Below, in pieces: positions 8,892-25,688 of a stretch of DNA of 45,304 bases. The position numbers and the translations under genes are program-made. Origin of the DNA: Mucispirillum schaedleri. GTDB taxonomy: Bacteria; Chrysiogenota; Deferribacteres; Deferribacterales; Mucispirillaceae. Each line of letters begins with the position of its first letter. Position 1 is the stretch's first letter. The notes beneath the pieces are model-generated. The model was not told the origin of the DNA and searched no databases. It worked only from the letters and a program-made list of their open reading frames with translations. Location of the stretch: the NCBI GenBank assembly GCA_949287985.1, contig CASEIN010000060.1, positions 1 to 45,304 on the forward strand, read 5' to 3'.

Positions 8892-8920
8892 TTGACTTTT
8901 TAAGTATATATGGTAGTATT
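8892..8920 (+). promoter_or_regulatory. Possible promoter of the acyl-carrier cluster
   Basis: TTGACT at 8892-8897 is followed after 17 bases by AGTATT (8915-8920). It would place the transcript start near 8927, before the preferred ATG at 8946 and after the upstream ATG at 8910, which supports the shorter protein. The -10 box is weak. Confidence 0.35.
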
Positions 8921-8945
8921 ACTAAAATATAAATTCGGTGTATAT

Positions 8946-9890
8946 ATGATTAAACATTCAATATATCTTCCTCTAAATAAAATTGAAAATGACCACTTTG
9001 CTTCTATATATGATGATTGGGATTCAGAACGCTTTTTTAGTCAAACAGGAATAAAATCAAGATATTATGCTAGCCCAAATGAAACATCTGGCAGTATGGC
9101 TGCAGCGGCACTTTCAAATTTAATAGATAAATATAATATAGATAAAAATTGTATTGATTTTATCGTATGTGTAACAGAAACCCCAGATAATCTTCTTCCA
9201 GCAACAGCTTATAAGGTGCACCAAATAGTAGGGCTGTCAAATAAATGTGGTGCATATGATATTAATCATGGATGTTCAGGCTTTACATATGGAATAATGA
9301 ATGCATGCAATCTTATTAATTCTGGAATGGCTAATAATGTTGCACTGTTAAATACTGATACTCTATCTCACTATCTTGATAAAAACGATAGAGGCATAAC
9401 CACAATTGTTGGCGATGCTGCATCTGCTTTTTTAATAGATAAAGCTACATGCAGTAATATAATGAACTTTGTATATGGAACAGATAGCTCAGGGTATGAT
9501 AAGCTACTTATTAAACCAAAAGACGATGATAAAAGTAAAGAACAATATCTTTATATGGACGGAATGGATGTTTTTTATTTTGCAATAAATAATGTACCTA
9601 ATATTATCAAAGAAATTCTACAAGCTAATAATTTATCTATTGATGATATTGATTTTATAGTCTTACATCAAGCAAATAAAACCATACTGGAATATGTAAA
9701 AAAAAGGCTGAAAATTAAAGATGAAAAATTTTATATTAATTTAGAAGAAACTGGTAATACAGCAAGTGTAACAATTCCTATAGCAATAAATAATTTAGTT
9801 AAAAATGGAGATTTAAAAGATAATATGAATATTCTAATTTTGGGATTTGGTGTTGGATATTCATGGTGTGGGACCGTTATAAGGTGGTAA
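8946..9890 (+). CDS. FabH-like 3-oxoacyl-ACP synthase III
   Basis: This thiolase-fold condensing enzyme joins an acyl-CoA or acyl-ACP to a malonyl-type extender. Start 8946 gives 314 aa opening MIKHSIYLP, as in FabH proteins; the ATG at 8910 would add 12 unrelated residues. The Cys-His-Asn triad is visible: C110 in INHGCSGF, H241 in LHQAN, N271 in TGNTAS. The C-terminal GFGVGYSWC matches the family's GFGxGxxW. An acyl carrier protein starts one base after the stop, followed by an SDR reductase, so this is a dedicated short acyl-building set rather than the housekeeping fab operon. C. jejuni has a comparable fabH2 (Cj1303) in its flagellin-glycan locus. The true substrate is unknown. Confidence 0.9.
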   Translation: MIKHSIYLPLNKIENDHFASIYDDWDSERFFSQTGIKSRYYASPNETSGSMAAAALSNLIDKYNIDKNCIDFIVCVTETPDNLLPATAYKVHQIVGLSNKCGAYDINHGCSGFTYGIMNACNLINSGMANNVALLNTDTLSHYLDKNDRGITTIVGDAASAFLIDKATCSNIMNFVYGTDSSGYDKLLIKPKDDDKSKEQYLYMDGMDVFYFAINNVPNIIKEILQANNLSIDDIDFIVLHQANKTILEYVKKRLKIKDEKFYINLEETGNTASVTIPIAINNLVKNGDLKDNMNILILGFGVGYSWCGTVIRW

Positions 9891-9891
9891 T

Positions 9892-10113
9892 ATGACTTTT
9901 GAAGAAAAAATGAAAATATTTAAAGAAACTTTCCTTATTGATGAAAGTATAGAGTTAAGTGGCAATACTATTCTTAATACTTTGGATAATTGGGATTCTA
10001 TGTCTAAGTTATCATTAATTGTTATTTTTAAAGATTATTGTAATAAAAAATTAACATTTGATATGTTAAACAGCTTTTCTTCAATACAAGATATATTTGA
10101 TGCTATGGATTAA
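9892..10113 (+). CDS. Acyl carrier protein 1
   Basis: This 73-residue acidic carrier protein has the phosphopantetheine attachment motif at DSM (D35-S36-M37 in NWDSMSKL). It should be converted to the holo form by a phosphopantetheinyl transferase encoded elsewhere and hold the acyl intermediate for the neighbouring FabH-like and SDR enzymes. Its sequence is far from housekeeping AcpP (no DSLDTVE), matching a specialised role. It lies one base after the synthase gene and three bases before the reductase gene. Confidence 0.88.
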   Translation: MTFEEKMKIFKETFLIDESIELSGNTILNTLDNWDSMSKLSLIVIFKDYCNKKLTFDMLNSFSSIQDIFDAMD

Positions 10114-10116
10114 AAA

Positions 10117-10860
10117 ATGAGTATAACTAATAACACATATTTAATAATTGGAGCAACAGGTGGGATAGGTATAGATTTAGCCCATACACTAGCAAAACAA
10201 AAAGCAAATATAATAATTTCTGGCTCAAATAATAGCAAACTAGATAAGTTATATAATGAACTTCAAAAAATTTCTAACTGTGACCATAGTAGAGAACAAC
10301 TAGATTTAAATAATATAAATGATATTGAACATGTATTTAATAAACTACGGACAAAATACAAACGAATTGATGGATTAATATACTGTGCTGGTATTGCACC
10401 ATTATGTCCATCTTTCCTAACTAAATATAACGATATGATAAAAACTTTTAATATTAATTATTTTGCATTTGTAGAATTTGCTAGATTATTTGCAAAACAA
10501 ACTTTCACCAAAGATAATATGGGACATATTATAGCTATATCATCAATATCATCAACACTGAATGAAAAAGGAAGGTTATCATACTCATCATCAAAAATTG
10601 CACTTGAAACATCTGTTAAATTATTTGCAAAAGAACTAATTGCAAGAAATATTTGTGTTAATGCTATTAGACCTGCAATAGTTAATACCGAATTAGGTCA
10701 AAACTATCTTGAGATAATAGGTGAAAACAATATTAATCATATACAGCCTCTTGGATATATTGAGACAAATGAAATAAATGAACTTATTCTTTATATTATA
10801 TCACAAAAAAGACCAAAAACAACTGGTACCATATTTGATATAAATGGAGGAATTTTATAA
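10117..10860 (+). CDS. SDR-family oxidoreductase (FabG-like)
   Basis: A 247-residue short-chain dehydrogenase/reductase. The nucleotide-binding GATGGIG is at residues 12-18, the CAG (NAG-type) motif at about 90-92, a catalytic serine lies in ISSISS at about 141-146, and the YSSSK motif gives Y156 and K160. Length and layout are those of 3-oxoacyl-ACP reductases, so it probably reduces the product of the upstream condensing enzyme on the carrier protein. It ends IFDINGGIL like FabG. Its stop overlaps the start of the next gene by one base (TAATG), suggesting coupled translation. Confidence 0.87.
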   Translation: MSITNNTYLIIGATGGIGIDLAHTLAKQKANIIISGSNNSKLDKLYNELQKISNCDHSREQLDLNNINDIEHVFNKLRTKYKRIDGLIYCAGIAPLCPSFLTKYNDMIKTFNINYFAFVEFARLFAKQTFTKDNMGHIIAISSISSTLNEKGRLSYSSSKIALETSVKLFAKELIARNICVNAIRPAIVNTELGQNYLEIIGENNINHIQPLGYIETNEINELILYIISQKRPKTTGTIFDINGGIL

Positions 10861-12950
10861 TGTTCGTTCATTATCTCAAATTCGTTGAAAAGCTCAATAT
10901 TTCCAGTGGGAATATTATCTTTATAGCTTCAGATATTTCTAAACTCGCTTATGAAGCACAAGAGAACGATATTGTTTTTAATATTAATGAATTTATAGAT
11001 GCGATTACAAATAAAATTGGTAACGAAGGAACATTAATCTTACCTGTCTATAATTGGGATTTTTGTAAAAACATACCTTTTGACTATAATAAAACAATAG
11101 GTAAAACTGGTTATTTAGGTAACGCTGCTCTCAAGCGCAATGATTTTATCAGAACAAAGCATCCTATTTATTCATTTGCAGTATGGGGAAAAGATAAACA
11201 TTACCTTGCTTCCATTGATAATATACATGCATTTGGTAAAAATACTGTTTACCAGTATCTAATAGATAATCACGCCACAAATATTGCTATTAATGTTAAT
11301 TTTAATGACCATTACACAATTTGTCATCAGATAGAACAACTTGTTGGTGTGCCATATCGATATAACAAATATTTTAAAGGTGATTATATTGATGTGAATA
11401 ATAATATATCAAAAAAAACATATTCAATGAGTGTTCGTTATCTCGAATTATCTCTTTCTGGTGATGCTGTTGAACTCTATAATGAGATGTTAGACAAGAA
11501 AATTGCATATGAGCAGAAGATAGGTAGTCATACAGTATCATATATAGATATTGCAAAATCAGTTGCAGTTATTGAAAATGATATTTTACATAACAATGCC
11601 CTTAAACAGATTCAATATAATCATAATAAAGCTAGATTATTCCATCAAAAATTACAATTAAAGGAAATAATTACCGATATATTTTCTATAACACGCTCCA
11701 TTTCTGGTAATGGTAATAGACAGACATTAAAATATTTAAAAGAAAACTATCTTGGAGAACTTAAAATACTTGAATATTCTATTGCTGATAACCCAACAAT
11801 TTTTGACTGGGAAACACCATATGAATGGAATATTGATGAAGCTTACATTGAAGATGAAAACGGAAATAAAATAATAGATTTTAAAAACAATAACCTGCAT
11901 ATTTTAGGCTATTCTGAACCTGTGGATATTACAATACCATTTTCAGAACTTGATAATCACTTATATTCACTAGAAGATGATATTGATGCTATACCATATG
12001 TTACATCATATTATAAAACACGCTGGGGGTTCTGTATTACCCACAGGCAGAGAGAAGAGTTGCGTAAAAACCCTAAACAATTATACCATGTAGTTATTAA
12101 ATCGACACTTAATAAAAACGGCTCTATTACATATGGTGAGCTTATTATTAATGGCTATGAAGATGATGAAATATTAATATCTACATACATATGCCATCCA
12201 TCAATGGCTAATGATAACCTATCAGGCATAGCTGTTGCAACTAAAATTGCAAAATATATATATGCACTGCCAGAAAGAAAATATACATATCGCATTATTT
12301 TTATTCCAGAAACTATTGGTGCTTTAATTTATTTAAAAGAAAATATAACACACCTGCAAAAGTATGTAAAGGCAGGATTTGTGCTTTCTTGTATTGGCGA
12401 TGACGGTGATTATTCCTGCGTCCATACTCCATATAATAATACATATACAGATAAAATAGTTACCCATGTTTTAAAACATATTACAGATGAGCCTAAAGAA
12501 TATTCATTTTTAGAGCGTGGAAGTGATGAAAGGCAGTTTTGTGCTCCTAATGTAAACTTACCAATATGCACACTTTCACGCACCAAGTTTGGCAAATTTA
12601 AAAAGTATCACACATCAAATGATAACCTTGATTTTGTTACTGAAAAAGGCTTGCAAGGTGGTTTTGAGTATGTAAAAAAATGTATTGATATATTAGAAAA
12701 CAATAATATATATAAAATAAAAACAGTTGGTGAGCCTCAGCTTGGAAAATATGGTTTATACCCTACTATCAGCCAAAAAGGAAGTGCTGACTATACAAGA
12801 CGCCTTACAAATATTATTGCATACCTTAACGGTGAAAACTCTATACTTGATATTGCAGAAATATTAAATGTACCTTTTAATGAGGTATTAGAAATTATTA
12901 ATCAATTAATAGAAACAAATTTAATAAATATGGCTGGAAAAGATATATGA
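10860..12950 (+). CDS. AAC(3)-family acyltransferase fused to DUF4910 aminopeptidase-like protein
   Basis: A 696-residue fusion. Residues 1-about 245 match the aminoglycoside 3-N-acetyltransferase family (GTLILPVYNWDFCK at 57-70, RTKHPIYSFAVWG at 98-110, DHYTICHQIEQ at 150-160). Residues about 265-615 match DUF4910/DUF2172, a zinc-peptidase-like fold, with candidate ligands H446 and D452 (CHPSMANDNLSG), E484 (PET), D556 (GSDERQF) and H584 (KYHTSNDN). Residues about 640-690 look like the small winged-helix tail seen in such proteins. In C. jejuni the two parts are separate neighbours: Cj1296/Cj1297 (AAC(3)-like) and Cj1295, which is needed for a dimethylglyceric-acid-type change of the flagellin glycan. 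I infer transfer or processing of an acyl group on a sugar, not antibiotic resistance. It overlaps the next gene by four bases. Confidence 0.85.
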   Translation: MFVHYLKFVEKLNISSGNIIFIASDISKLAYEAQENDIVFNINEFIDAITNKIGNEGTLILPVYNWDFCKNIPFDYNKTIGKTGYLGNAALKRNDFIRTKHPIYSFAVWGKDKHYLASIDNIHAFGKNTVYQYLIDNHATNIAINVNFNDHYTICHQIEQLVGVPYRYNKYFKGDYIDVNNNISKKTYSMSVRYLELSLSGDAVELYNEMLDKKIAYEQKIGSHTVSYIDIAKSVAVIENDILHNNALKQIQYNHNKARLFHQKLQLKEIITDIFSITRSISGNGNRQTLKYLKENYLGELKILEYSIADNPTIFDWETPYEWNIDEAYIEDENGNKIIDFKNNNLHILGYSEPVDITIPFSELDNHLYSLEDDIDAIPYVTSYYKTRWGFCITHRQREELRKNPKQLYHVVIKSTLNKNGSITYGELIINGYEDDEILISTYICHPSMANDNLSGIAVATKIAKYIYALPERKYTYRIIFIPETIGALIYLKENITHLQKYVKAGFVLSCIGDDGDYSCVHTPYNNTYTDKIVTHVLKHITDEPKEYSFLERGSDERQFCAPNVNLPICTLSRTKFGKFKKYHTSNDNLDFVTEKGLQGGFEYVKKCIDILENNNIYKIKTVGEPQLGKYGLYPTISQKGSADYTRRLTNIIAYLNGENSILDIAEILNVPFNEVLEIINQLIETNLINMAGKDI

Positions 12951-13696
12951 ATGAAAACATAAAATTAACAGAGCAGGAAAAACTATACTGGGAAAAAATC
13001 TTTAATACAGAATTTATTTTTGAAAAAGGCTGTTACAGCACATGTAACAGCCACTGCTGTAGGTGGGATACTCCTGATTTACCACTAACAATTATACCAA
13101 AAGGTGGTACTCTTTTTTATCTACCTAAAGAATATGCATATATTTCTAAATATGGAAAAATAACTGAAATACCACCCTATAAAATGAAAACAAAATTATT
13201 TGATAAAGAACTTTTTATATACTATAAACATTGTAATGATGATGCCAATTGTAATATTAAGTTTTCACGTTCACTTTATTGTAAGCTCTATCCTTTTATA
13301 CCTGTTTTTGATATAGAGGGAAATCTGTTGGATTTAAAATTTATTTCAATATATGATGTTACATATGATTTTATAGGACAAAAATCACCCTGCTATGTAA
13401 AAGATTTGAAAGATAAATACATGGATTTATGGAAGCAAAAAGATTCTAATATACATTTGCTGAAAAATCCGTACACATTATTTTATTTAATGGTTGGTAA
13501 CTTAATACACGATAATTATGTGGAGACATTAAAATCAAATAATAAATTAATTAATTTACAAGGTAAAGAATTCTGGAAAAAATGGGAAAAATTATACCTT
13601 GCAGGCAGACTTATAAATAAAAATAAACTTGAAAAAGATATTGAAAAACTTTATAATGACTTCAATATAAAATATAATTTTTCTCTTGAGGATTAA
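12947..13696 (+). CDS. Cysteine-cluster protein (YkgJ-like metal-binding?)
   Basis: A 249-residue soluble protein with a CxxxCxxxCC cluster near the N-terminus (C29, C33, C37, C38 in GCYSTCNSHCCRW) and three later cysteines in HCNDDANCN and LYCKLYPF. The pattern recalls YkgJ/CxxCxxCC proteins, which are thought to bind zinc or iron-sulfur. The rest is rich in Lys, Tyr and Asn and I do not recognise it. ATGA overlap with the upstream fusion gene and immediate abutment with the second carrier-protein gene place it firmly in the operon. A hydroxylase or redox role on the carrier-bound group is possible but only a guess. Confidence 0.6.
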   Translation: MNENIKLTEQEKLYWEKIFNTEFIFEKGCYSTCNSHCCRWDTPDLPLTIIPKGGTLFYLPKEYAYISKYGKITEIPPYKMKTKLFDKELFIYYKHCNDDANCNIKFSRSLYCKLYPFIPVFDIEGNLLDLKFISIYDVTYDFIGQKSPCYVKDLKDKYMDLWKQKDSNIHLLKNPYTLFYLMVGNLIHDNYVETLKSNNKLINLQGKEFWKKWEKLYLAGRLINKNKLEKDIEKLYNDFNIKYNFSLED

Positions 13697-13930
13697 ATGG
13701 ATACAATAAGACAAAAAATAGTTGATATTTTTGCAAATAACAGTATAGATGTCTTGTCAGTAGATGAGAATAAATCATTAATTGAATCAGGTATAGTAGA
13801 TTCTATGACATTTGTAAATATTCTATTAGAAATAGAAGAATCTCTTAACATTGAAATAGATTTTGAAAAAGTTGATTTCATATCTATTGTATCATTAAAA
13901 GGGCTTTACTCCCATATTGTTGCATTATAG
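13697..13930 (+). CDS. Acyl/peptidyl carrier protein 2
   Basis: A 77-residue carrier protein with the attachment motif in GIVDSMTFV (D35-S36-M37). It begins directly after the preceding stop. It resembles the D-alanyl/aminoacyl carrier type (DltC-like GIVDS) more than AcpP, and an adenylation enzyme is encoded nearby at 14719, so it is likely charged with an amino acid. C. jejuni has a similar pair (Cj1307 adenylation, Cj1308 carrier). Its last six bases overlap the end of the convergent methyltransferase frame. Confidence 0.85.
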   Translation: MDTIRQKIVDIFANNSIDVLSVDENKSLIESGIVDSMTFVNILLEIEESLNIEIDFEKVDFISIVSLKGLYSHIVAL

Positions 13931-14655
13931 CTTTTCAATAAACATATGGTACATACTTTGATTTTTTTCTGATTTAATATATGAATTATCATCTGATATT
14001 TCATATGTTATTCTGTCATTTCTTCTTAGAAAAACTATTTTAAACCTATTATCTAAAATATTGATTACACCATATAAGCCTATATTATTTATATATATAC
14101 TTTCACCTTTAAAAGATTTACTAGCACTATAATCATCTTTAAAAAGTCTTATATTCTTGGTACATATTTCTCCCTGTGGTGTTAATAAAGCAATCCCCCC
14201 CCCCCGACTAAAACTCTATGTACTTCATCAATTGCTTTTTTATATATTTCTTCATTCACACACACTAATACACCATGGTCTATTACTATATGAAAAAAAG
14301 TATCTTTAAATGGCATATTATCAACTGATGCTACCTGAATATTACCATACAGACCAGTAGAATCAAATGATTTTATACAATAATCAACAGCTGTTTGGGA
14401 GATATCTATACCATATACATTATACCCAAGAGATGCTGCATATTTTATATTTGCCCCACTGCCGCAACCTATTTCTAAAATATTTATATTTTCAGGTTTA
14501 CTTTCAGGATATTTTTTTTCAAAAAAATTTAATAATTCTATAACAATAGGAAATGGAAACTTCATCATAGCTTTATCGCCCGTTGTTTGATATAAATTTT
14601 CCCATAAATTACTCAAGGTACACCCCAAGAAATCATATTTACACTCACATATCAT
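13925..14655 (-). CDS. SAM methyltransferase with a G11 tract, phase OFF
   Basis: The open frame starts at ATG 14655 and shows SAM-binding motif I (ILEIGCGSGANI, residues 59-70), with GIDIS and DHGVLV as later Rossmann strands. At residue 151 it enters 11 G (complement of 14195-14205) and stops at TAA 14182, giving 157 residues. If the run were 9 or 12 G, the frame would stay open through ALLTPQGEIC, RRNDRITYEIS and FIEKL to a TAA at 13925 (242 residues with G9). The clean 89-codon continuation argues against a chance ORF. So this is a class I methyltransferase whose C-terminal third is switched off by slipped-strand mispairing, as in the phase-variable C. jejuni flagellin-glycan genes. It lies opposite its neighbours and converges on carrier protein 2. 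A base-count error is possible. Confidence 0.8.
14195..14205. repeat. Homopolymeric C11/G11 tract (contingency tract)
   Basis: Eleven consecutive C on the plus strand in otherwise highly AT-rich DNA, inside the reading frame of the methyltransferase. Tracts of this kind mutate by slippage and switch genes on and off. Confidence 0.9.
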
Positions 14656-14718: not shown

Positions 14719-16257
14719 ATGAATATTCAAAAAATATTATTTCAATCTTTAAATAATTTTAGTGAAAATAATGCACTATATATAGATGATAAATATTATA
14801 CATACAGCTTTTTAAAACAGTTTTCAGTAAAAACAGCTAAAAGTATTTTAAATATTGAAAATAAAAAACAATCAGTTATTATTATGGGCTCAAGAAGTTT
14901 TTATACATATGCAGGTATTTTAGGAACTATTATATCTGGTTCATATTACACTCCTTTAAATGAGACCTTTCCCATAGAAAGAAATATTAATATAATAAAA
15001 ATTTCTCAAGCAAAAACTATAGTATTAGATATAGAAGATTTTAAAAATTATGAAACAATTTTAGATAACTTAGAAAATTATAATATTATATGCCTTAATG
15101 GTGATATTAATGATTTAAAGAAACGTTTTCCTAAACATAATTTTGATTATAAAGATAATAACCTTGAAAATATTGAAGTATGTGATGATGATACTATATA
15201 TATGCTTTTTACTTCAGGGAGTACAGGTGTTCCTAAGGGTATTAAAATATCACATTATAATATATATAACTATATTCATGCTTTTATTAAAAGAAATCCT
15301 ATTTATAGTGATGATAGATTTATACAAATGAATGATTTAACATTTGATTTATCAGTTCATTCTTTATTTTTATCTATTTTGCATGGTGCATGCTTATATA
15401 TACCTAGTAGAAGCGAAAGAATAAACCCAGTAAAATTTATTAATGACTACAGTATTACAAATATTCTAATGGTTCCATCATCTATAGCGTTTATGAAAAA
15501 AATGAGAGTATTAAAAGATAATTCACTTATGTCCGTTAAATATTTATCATTTTGTGGTGAAACATTACCTTTTGATAATGCAATATTAATGGCCAAAGCA
15601 GCACCTAATGCAAAGCTTGAAAATTTATATGGTCCTACAGAGGCTACTATTGCATGTACATATTTTGAATTTGATAAAAATACCGAAGAATTAATAGAAT
15701 ATTCTGGCTCTATGCCTATAGGAAATGCTTATGATGGAATGAATGTGGAACTTTTTGATAATAATCTAAATAAAATCATTGATAATAGTATCGGGCAAAT
15801 TGTATTATCTGGTAAACAACTTACTACAGGTTATGTTAATAATAAAGAACAAACAAAAGAAAAATTTATAATGATAGATAATAAACTTCACTATATTACT
15901 GGAGATTTAGGTAGAGTTATCAATAATAAACTAGTATTTCTTGGTAGAAATGATTCTCAAGTGCAGATAAAAGGTTATAGAGTGGAAATTTTTGAAATAG
16001 AACATGCAATATCCAAAATTAATGGCATTATTAGTAATGCTGTAATACCAACCCCTGTTGGTGCTGTTACATATGAAAATACCACTGCGTTCATAACATG
16101 TAACACAAATATTGATTTAATAAAAATAAAAGAAGAATTAAGTAAAAAATTACCAAATTATATGGTTCCTAATAACATTATCATACTTGATAATATGCCA
16201 TTAAACTCCAATGGTAAAATTGATAGAAATCAGTTAAAGAAAATATTACAACCATAA
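14719..16257 (+). CDS. Adenylation enzyme (NRPS A-domain / DltA-like)
   Basis: This 512-residue stand-alone AMP-forming enzyme activates a carboxylate, probably an amino acid. Visible motifs: TSGSTGVPKG (165-174), FDLSVHSL with the Asp (D210) that binds the amino group in amino-acid-activating enzymes, LYGPTEAT (303-310), TGDLGR (394-399), GRNDSQVQIKGYRVE (409-423) and the catalytic Lys in NGKIDR (K500). It has no attached carrier or condensation domain, so it would load a free carrier, most likely the one at 13697. Cj1307 in the C. jejuni flagellar locus is comparable. Start ATG follows CGGAG at good spacing. Its gene diverges from the phase-variable methyltransferase across 63 bases. Confidence 0.9.
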   Translation: MNIQKILFQSLNNFSENNALYIDDKYYTYSFLKQFSVKTAKSILNIENKKQSVIIMGSRSFYTYAGILGTIISGSYYTPLNETFPIERNINIIKISQAKTIVLDIEDFKNYETILDNLENYNIICLNGDINDLKKRFPKHNFDYKDNNLENIEVCDDDTIYMLFTSGSTGVPKGIKISHYNIYNYIHAFIKRNPIYSDDRFIQMNDLTFDLSVHSLFLSILHGACLYIPSRSERINPVKFINDYSITNILMVPSSIAFMKKMRVLKDNSLMSVKYLSFCGETLPFDNAILMAKAAPNAKLENLYGPTEATIACTYFEFDKNTEELIEYSGSMPIGNAYDGMNVELFDNNLNKIIDNSIGQIVLSGKQLTTGYVNNKEQTKEKFIMIDNKLHYITGDLGRVINNKLVFLGRNDSQVQIKGYRVEIFEIEHAISKINGIISNAVIPTPVGAVTYENTTAFITCNTNIDLIKIKEELSKKLPNYMVPNNIIILDNMPLNSNGKIDRNQLKKILQP

Positions 16258-24278: not shown

Positions 24279-25688
24279 CTATTTCAATTTCATTAGATAA
24301 ATAGTTCTTTTAGTATTTTCTATGGCAACCTTTTCTAATATAACAAAATGTCTCCCAAAAGCTTGTTCAAAGTTTTCACTAGTGTAGTAAGAATAATCTC
24401 CAATTTTTTCATCTAATATTTTCATTGTTTGAGAATCATCTTTTGGAACCCATTCAATTATTAAATATTTTGTAAAAGAAGCAAAAAACTCAGCAAATTT
24501 ATTAAAAGGGACATTATTTGTAATAGTTATATGATGAATTAATGCAAGTGCTAAAGTAATATCACTATTTTTTATTCTCTCTATAAAAGAATCTCGTTCT
24601 GTATTAGCCCAACCAATACTTGCTGCAGGATTTGTTAAATCCGTAATCACAGGATATATATTTTTATATTTCTCATCACTTTGGATTAACTTGTAATTTT
24701 CATCAACAGCATGGTAATCTAAATCTGATGAAATAATAATACTTTCTGGATACTGATGGCTGACAATCCTTGAAAAATGACCATTATTTGCTCCTAAATC
24801 TACTACCTTATATTTACTGTCACACTTATTAATAAACTCTAGCAATAGATTTTCTTTCGTATGAAAAGCTTCCTTATCATAGTTTGTAAAGCTGTAATAA
24901 CCATTCCAGTTACTTTGTCCCTTACTAGTATTATAATGAATATTTGATACAGTATTTATTAAATTTTCAATTAAATTTAATAAACTCTGTTTTTTTAGGT
25001 GCAGCTGTTTATGATTTCCACTATCTTTTACTGCTTTTTGATGTATTTTTGAGTTTAAATGTAAATGCATTAAAAGCCCCCCCCCAGCTTTAAATATAGT
25101 TTTTAAAGGAAGTAATTTTGATGCATAATCAAGCGGAATACCATCAAGGAAATTAATACTAAGATTATACATTCTGTAATCACAATAGGCTATTAATGCA
25201 AGTGGTGCTAAAAAATGCCTGCAAAATTGACTATATGCCTGCCATACACTACCTTCATTATATTTTTCAAATGAAAGCGTATCAATAAAAATTGGTCTGC
25301 CTTTATAAAATTGTATATTAAAAGCAGTTGCATCCTTTAATATCATATTGTATTTTAAAGCTTCAAGAAGCACTTTTAAAGTTAGTAATGCAGCATCTTT
25401 TAATTGATGAAAACTCCATTCATATGGGTATGAAATATATGGAAGCTGAATAGGCTTAATTATCTTATATACATCGTCACTAAACATATTAAATTGCTCT
25501 ATATTAGAAATTTCCTCATGAGATACCAATATTTCATCCATTACTAATTTATCATATAATCCAGATGAAATTAAAAAATCATAATTTTCTTTATACGCCT
25601 TATTGATACATCTGTATACAATATTGTCATGCTTAAATACGTATCCACCAGCATATATATCACGAAAAGATGAATTTAGAACTTGCAT
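24279..25688 (-). CDS. SAM-dependent methyltransferase with an in-frame G9 tract
   Basis: A 469-residue class I methyltransferase. Residues 1-about 200 match the N-terminal part of a NoeA-like family (FRDIYAGGYVFKHDNIVYRCINKAYKENYDFL and SSGLYDKLV). SAM-binding motif I, KVVDLGANNGHFSR, is at about residue 295-308, with IIISSDLD after it, IIEWVPKDD near the end and RTIYLMKLK as the C-terminus. A run of nine G (complement of 25077-25085) encodes G202-G204 and keeps the frame open. One base more or less would truncate it before the catalytic domain. It is therefore a likely phase-variable gene in the ON state. It converges with the sulfatase-fold group, and its target is probably a surface glycan. 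Confidence 0.85.
   Translation of the reverse strand: MQVLNSSFRDIYAGGYVFKHDNIVYRCINKAYKENYDFLISSGLYDKLVMDEILVSHEEISNIEQFNMFSDDVYKIIKPIQLPYISYPYEWSFHQLKDAALLTLKVLLEALKYNMILKDATAFNIQFYKGRPIFIDTLSFEKYNEGSVWQAYSQFCRHFLAPLALIAYCDYRMYNLSINFLDGIPLDYASKLLPLKTIFKAGGGLLMHLHLNSKIHQKAVKDSGNHKQLHLKKQSLLNLIENLINTVSNIHYNTSKGQSNWNGYYSFTNYDKEAFHTKENLLLEFINKCDSKYKVVDLGANNGHFSRIVSHQYPESIIISSDLDYHAVDENYKLIQSDEKYKNIYPVITDLTNPAASIGWANTERDSFIERIKNSDITLALALIHHITITNNVPFNKFAEFFASFTKYLIIEWVPKDDSQTMKILDEKIGDYSYYTSENFEQAFGRHFVILEKVAIENTKRTIYLMKLK
25077..25085. repeat. Homopolymeric C9/G9 tract (contingency tract)
   Basis: Nine consecutive C on the plus strand within the methyltransferase frame. It is the second long C/G run in this AT-rich window, and both lie in methyltransferases. 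Confidence 0.85.

Follow-up and report, generated by a model that had tools for sequence, protein, structure and literature searches.

The fused gene and its operon

The window, by which we mean the whole stretch of 45,304 nucleotides of the Mucispirillum schaedleri contig CASEIN010000060.1 (GCA_949287985.1), carries at 10860-12950 of the + strand an open reading frame that encodes a protein of 696 amino acids in a single frame without a stop. The first part of this protein is an AAC(3)-type acyltransferase and the second belongs to the DUF4910 family. The Antibiotic_NAT / AAC(3) domain (PF02522; E 2.9e-21, 76.6 bits against a cut-off of 25) occupies residues 43-239 (10986-11576, +) and is connected through a linker at about residues 246-266 (11595-11657, +) to the M28-like DUF4910 domain at residues 269-615 (11664-12704, +; E 9.5e-88); both domains were assigned from Pfam, alignment and fold search. 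A DUF2172 insert lies within DUF4910 at residues 322-416 (11823-12107, +; E 8.3e-35). The protein ends in an HTH_47 winged-helix tail, residues 619-690 (12714-12929, +; E 1.1e-19), which is intact as originally described. All of these Pfam-A matches are above cut-off, and the order DUF4910, DUF2172, HTH_47 is the one expected for a protein of the DUF4910 / PIRSF015244 type.

The fused gene overlaps the upstream SDR gene (TAATG) and has a 4-bp overlap with the next reading frame. Full-length fusions with 60-81% identity to the window protein are present in six relatives, namely five genomes of the same genus (G002, G003, G005, G007 and G009) and one of the sister genus (G011), and no fusion match was found in G006, a further complete genome of the same genus. 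Because of the overlaps with the neighbours and the full-length recurrence in six relatives, the fusion is not an assembly error. The joining of an acyltransferase and DUF4910 in one 696-residue Mucispirillum chain, which the original prediction had read from the sequence, is therefore real, and its recurrence in the same and the sister genus indicates that it is old within this Deferribacterota family.

The genes from 8910 to 13930 are closely packed. They comprise KASIII (beta-ketoacyl-ACP synthase III; 8910-9890, +) with its Cys-His-Asn motifs visible in the sequence, a probable acyl carrier protein recognized by eye from its DSM motif and without a Pfam match (ACP1; 9892-10113, +), an SDR / FabG-like reductase (10117-10860, +), the fused gene, a 249-residue protein with clustered cysteines (C-x3-C-x3-CC; 12947-13696, +) and a PP-binding, DltC-like carrier protein (ACP2; 13697-13930, +). 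The cysteine protein has no Pfam or NCBIfam match; at least three relatives (L033, L034, L035) and the sister genus (L038) keep it in the operon. Beyond ACP2 lie a SAM methyltransferase gene on the opposite strand (14182-14655, -) and a gene for a DltA-like AMP-forming ligase (14719-16257, +), and two flagellin-type genes are located directly upstream of the operon.

On another contig than the window, the same genome holds a pseudaminic acid (Pse) cluster in which PseB, PseC, PseH and PseI score above their NCBIfam cut-offs, alongside a CMP-transferase-like gene and a flagellin transferase of the Maf type. From this gene content, the genome is predicted to make Pse and a flagellin Maf transferase. 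In the sister genus (G011), the Pse/Maf cluster and the fusion share one contig. A formyltransferase-like domain is fused to PseH in the genome's own Pse cluster (L133:12065-13141), which may mean N-formyl sugar variants.

Predicted structure and conserved residues

Structure modelling had been suggested as a check on the original prediction. In an AlphaFold2 model built from an 82-row alignment (mean pLDDT 93, pTM 0.90), both halves are predicted to fold confidently, and the model is poor only at the linker, with pLDDT below 50 at residues 256-263. The modelled DUF4910 half (residues 264-692) superposes on PDB 3k9t with a Z of 49.1 and an rmsd of 1.5 A over 406 residues, and on M28 aminopeptidases with Z 23-28, which places it in the M28 fold; the transferrin receptor is also among the fold-search matches. 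The AAC(3) half matches AAC(3) enzymes (6mn1, 3sma, 6bbr and BA2930) with a Z of about 24 at only 11-19% identity, and FrbF in Foldseek with an E of about 1e-14. Its matches to PDB entries by sequence are only marginal, and the assignment of the AAC(3) fold therefore rests on the fold search. Conserved positions in this half are R98, T99, S105, H156, E159, Y166-R167 and R193, among which R98, T99, S105 and R193 are near-invariant in the alignment. H156 is present in 55 of 58 rows and E159 in 57 of 59, and the equivalence of H156 with H183 of BA2930 is read from a partial alignment only.

Five candidate zinc ligands had been proposed in the DUF4910 half, namely H446 (12195-12197, +), D452 (12213-12215, +), E484 (12306-12311 together with P483, +), D556 (12525-12527, +) and H584 (12609-12611, +). 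H446, D452 and H584 align with the zinc ligands H189, D195 and H324 of 3k9t and make up a predicted metal site, while E484 and D556 are conserved and are not reported as ligands in that structure. A catalytic Asp and a catalytic Glu are needed by every M28 peptidase. The position of the Asp is taken here by S448 (55 of 57 rows have Ser, L057 has Asp and L108 has Gln), and that of the general-base Glu by P483, with Pro in all 58 rows. Because both residues are absent, the DUF4910 half is not a classical peptidase. The catalytic residues on which the original prediction had depended are thus missing from this half in nearly all of the relatives examined, and the 'peptidase site' is not intact.

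Other positions of the DUF4910 half are strongly kept: for C445, C511, E484, D514 and D556, the residue is the same in 57 of the rows covering the position (57 of 57 for C445 and C511). D452 is replaced by Asn in 49 of 57 rows, with Glu adjoining. At residues 452-453, the first of which is the metal-bridging Asp, Asp-Asn is confined to the fused Deferribacterota rows and 3k9t; L093 has Asp-Gln, and the remaining 49 rows have Asn-Glu. With two types of metal site in the family, the Mucispirillum fusion differs in metal-site type from the Lachnospiraceae fusions.

Distribution and origin of the fusion

A total of 84,980 species genomes were scanned with two motifs of the acyltransferase half, DUF4910 not being required. 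The best 80 of 104 confirmed places by full-length score were kept, a choice which favours loci carrying both halves. Among these 80 loci the two halves are fused in 32, adjacent (within 120 bp on one strand) in 27 and both present further apart in 14, and the remaining 7 are without DUF4910. The acyltransferase gene comes first in 21 of the 27 adjacent pairs and second in 6. Fused genes are found in Deferribacterota, Lachnospiraceae, Erysipelotrichaceae and Gastranaerophilales, and no match was found in phage records. A fusion private to the Mucispirillum genome is ruled out by the relatives together with the motif scan, and the architecture, a search for which had been suggested as a check, proves fairly widespread. 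Gene fusions of this family were mentioned in 2014, without details in the main text (PMC4000134). A less biased sample is given by the 299 genomes of the family of one fused Lachnospiraceae genome, where 17 strong DUF4910 genes occur in 16 genomes; two of the 17 lie in frames of about 695 residues, and the fusion is therefore a minority form in that family.

Outside Deferribacterota there are 26 fused loci, of which 21 contain an ACP and 21 a MaoC hydratase. In one Lachnospiraceae locus (L061:5971-8457), acyltransferase, DUF4910 and MaoC (E 7.7e-17) are joined in a three-part chain of 829 residues. In 24 of these 26 loci there is no PseI homologue closer than about 6 kb. PseI/NeuB-type genes are present inside the locus in 12 of the 27 adjacent cases and in 7 of the 14 in which the genes lie further apart. 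On a plasmid of Tritonibacter mobilis the gene order is pseB-pseC-...-DUF4910-AAC(3)-flmD-...-pseI-pseF, with DUF4910 and AAC(3) overlapping by 4 bp. Two variant genes were also seen. One is a divergent second fusion of 616 residues that combines Antibiotic_NAT with DUF2172 and immediately precedes an intact DUF4910 gene (L041:7077-8924). The other is a 457-residue acyltransferase to which no more than a piece of DUF4910 is attached, and it resembles a shrunken fusion (L048:4418-5788).

Over the DUF4910 tree, fused and unfused states alternate with 6-8 changes, a count that does not separate gain from loss. A single fused clade is rejected on this tree (difference of 175 log-likelihood units, p-AU 5e-63), which counts against one origin of all fusions. 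Both trees unite the fused Deferribacterota rows in a single group with good support, and in the DUF4910 tree two unfused genes of the same genus fall inside it. It is possible that several separate fusions occurred, or that an early fusion was followed by several splits. Because of the two metal-site types, separate fusions for Mucispirillum and Lachnospiraceae are the simpler reading.

Probable exchange of the acyltransferase half and homopolymer tracts

Comparison of the window with the DNA of a close relative (L033) points to an exchanged segment at 9880-11680 (+) that holds ACP1, the SDR and the AAC(3) half. Identity is 97-100% from 8381 to about 9880 and only about 53-86% over ACP1 and everything up to and including the acyltransferase half; it is back at 85-100% from 11681, which is codon 274 at the edge of DUF4910. 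Synonymous differences per site are 0.01 in KASIII, 0.67 in the first half of the fused gene and 0.22-0.23 in the second, and L033 is without most of the SDR. This pattern fits an exchange of the acyl cassette while the DUF4910 half stays in place. Another pair, L034/L035 (the same as L055/L118), shows no difference between KASIII and about codon 375, beyond which there are about 0.2-0.6 differences per synonymous site. Since L034 starts at a contig end, that pattern is possibly an assembly chimera, and the pair of the window and L033 is therefore the main evidence for exchange. Swapping of the AAC(3) half as a general habit of all fused lineages was also considered; the one close pair from Lachnospiraceae (L083/L087) shows no sign of it, with synonymous differences of 0.19 and 0.32.

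The methyltransferase gene at the end of the operon is cut short at a poly-C tract, C11 at 14195-14205 (G11 on the coding strand). In L033 the tract has ten G and the frame is open over 229 residues, and the gene in the window is probably phase-variable and in the OFF state. Runs of eight or more are expected about 0.01 times per 45 kb at the composition of the window. A G9 tract is located at codon 599 of the fused gene in three loci (L034:3222-3230, L035:8791-8799 and L038:9630-9638), in the unfused DUF4910 gene of L040 (L040:3990-3998), and in three Gastranaerophilales fusions, L069, L070 (codon 15) and L077 (codon 23). Elsewhere in the window, a C9 run at 25077-25085 lies inside a reading frame at 24279-25688 (-), and such runs are very rare at 29% G+C. 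In Campylobacter jejuni, the gene Cj1295 is phase variable through a poly-G/C tract (PMC3068675).

Both families, the phenotype of DUF4910 and the mention of fusions were known already, and the fusion is real and recurrent. What is new here is the apparent exchange of the acyltransferase half between close relatives, with its breakpoint at the domain border as judged from DNA comparison, and the presence of poly-G9 tracts in several fused genes, at two positions in two lineages. We tentatively propose, with somewhat less than even confidence, that the fusion is a specificity-swapping module, in which the AAC(3) half and the genes for carrier protein and reductase would be exchanged between species at the domain border, the sugar-facing DUF4910 would stay constant and poly-G tracts would switch the fused gene, so that acylation of the flagellar sugar would be varied in two ways.

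Possible function of the fused protein

Repeated fusion and frequent adjacency strongly argue that the two halves act together, as the original prediction had proposed. The data suggest that the joined or neighbouring halves cooperate in altering the acyl group of a flagellar sugar. Pse takes its C5 N-acetyl group from GlcNAc. A different acyl group at C5 needs removal of the acetyl and re-acylation, and a different one at C7 needs only a replacement of PseH. We give about an even chance to the hypothesis that the fusion is a two-domain enzyme which changes the N-acyl group on the Pse of flagellin. The data show the fusion and its recurrence, the predicted folds, the acyl-ACP operon, the Pse and Maf genes of the same genome and the loss of the M28 residues; the substrate, the C5 position, the N-deacylation and the identity of the acyl group are what we infer. 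The operon would build a short acyl group on a carrier, using the AMP ligase with ACP2, KASIII with ACP1 and the SDR, and the methyltransferase. The DUF4910 half would remove or take over the C5 N-acetyl of Pse, the AAC(3) half would load the acyl group from acyl-ACP onto the freed amine, and a Maf protein would transfer the modified sugar to flagellin. Such a division of labour, with DUF4910 freeing the amine and the acyltransferase reloading it, would account for the adjacency, for either gene order and for the fusions.

In C. jejuni, a Cj1295 mutant loses dimethylglyceroyl-Pse, for which its authors propose C5 N-deacylation (PMC3068675), and C5 is where the Cj1295-dependent acyl group is attached (PMC3068675, citing Logan et al. 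2009). DUF4910 thus had a genetic phenotype already and was less poorly understood than supposed, but the fusion does make its role directly testable. In Table 1 of Hitchen et al. (PMC3068675), neither variant has Cj1296/7 in frame and the presence of the dimethylglyceroyl sugar follows Cj1295, and the AAC(3) partner is therefore apparently not needed for that group. The parallel drawn at the outset with C. jejuni stands in that a DUF4910-type gene and an acyltransferase gene are separate neighbours there, and is weakened by Cj1296/7 being off in both variants. This behaviour of the partner during modification counts against an acyl swap, as does Asn for D452 in 49 of 57 rows. With Pro for the M28 base in every row and Ser for the Asp in nearly all, hydrolysis would need other residues. 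The scarcity of PseI around fused loci outside Deferribacterota, and the location of the Mucispirillum Pse cluster on another contig, also weigh on this side.

It is unlikely, in our view, that the AAC(3) half alone is enzymatic, acting like PseH on the amine of a UDP-4-amino sugar (later C7), with DUF4910 as a non-catalytic module for scaffolding, oligomerisation or carrier docking. Such a role would suit a domain that has lost its M28 catalytic residues, and M28-fold pseudo-enzymes such as the transferrin receptor exist. Moreover, 3k9t is a trimer partly held together by its winged helix (PMC4000134). Against this reading, an invariant surface is kept around the metal site (C445, H446, P483, E484, C511, D514, D556 and H584), the genome has a PseH of its own already, and one C. 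jejuni modification requires Cj1295 alone, Cj1296/7 being off (PMC3068675).

A direct transfer of the acyl group by the DUF4910 half (transamidation), perhaps via C445 or C511 and with the amide bound at the metal, appears rather improbable. We know of no acyl-enzyme for DUF4910, which speaks against it. In its favour, both cysteines are invariant and lie beside a metal ligand and close to the strand that usually bears M28 ligands, and transacylation has been suggested (PMC4000134).

There is a small chance that the pair acts on another amino sugar of a surface glycan, of the viosamine or bacillosamine type, and that the link to Pse is incidental. The 3-hydroxybutyryl-viosamine of Pseudomonas flagellin is likewise built by KASIII, ACP, SDR and methyltransferase, and Pse genes are absent nearby in most fused Lachnospiraceae loci. 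The flagellin neighbours and the Pse/Maf cluster of the genome, on the same contig in G011, argue for Pse instead, together with the PseI-type neighbours of many unfused loci and the Tritonibacter Pse cluster. An aminoglycoside resistance enzyme fused to a true peptidase is hardly credible, as only the Pfam names favour it, while AAC(3)-IV, the only NCBIfam resistance model listed, scores 23.6 bits against a cut-off of 420, the M28 catalytic residues are missing, and the gene context is one of sugar and acyl-ACP genes.

The first structure of DUF4910 dates from 2009 and its Campylobacter phenotype from 2010. Its repeated fusion to an acyltransferase, once with MaoC in addition, narrows the question of its reaction to whether an amine is freed and then loaded from a carrier protein, and provides a single polypeptide for assay. 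Gut bacteria may vary their flagellar sugars in the manner seen in these loci.

Comparison with known systems

CA_C2195 of Clostridium acetobutylicum (3k9t) has the same DUF4910, DUF2172 and HTH_47 domains as the window protein, the same H/D/H site and, instead of the M28 Asp and Glu, likewise Ser and Pro. Unlike the window protein it is without an acyltransferase domain. Enzymes of the AAC(3) / FrbF fold may share with the AAC(3) half of that protein the conserved His and Glu of its T-x-x-H-x-x-E stretch, but this half, in contrast to the drug-resistance relatives of this fold, belongs to a subfamily with acyl-ACP neighbours. Among acyl-assembly operons of the MaoC / ACP kind, most Lachnospiraceae loci have an ACP and MaoC after the fused gene, whereas the window operon has KASIII and an SDR and no MaoC. 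Cj1295, which is DUF4910-type by literature description, resides in the flagellin glycosylation locus of C. jejuni and is needed for dimethylglyceroyl-Pse; unlike the window gene it stands alone, with the acyltransferase Cj1296/7 as a separate neighbour.
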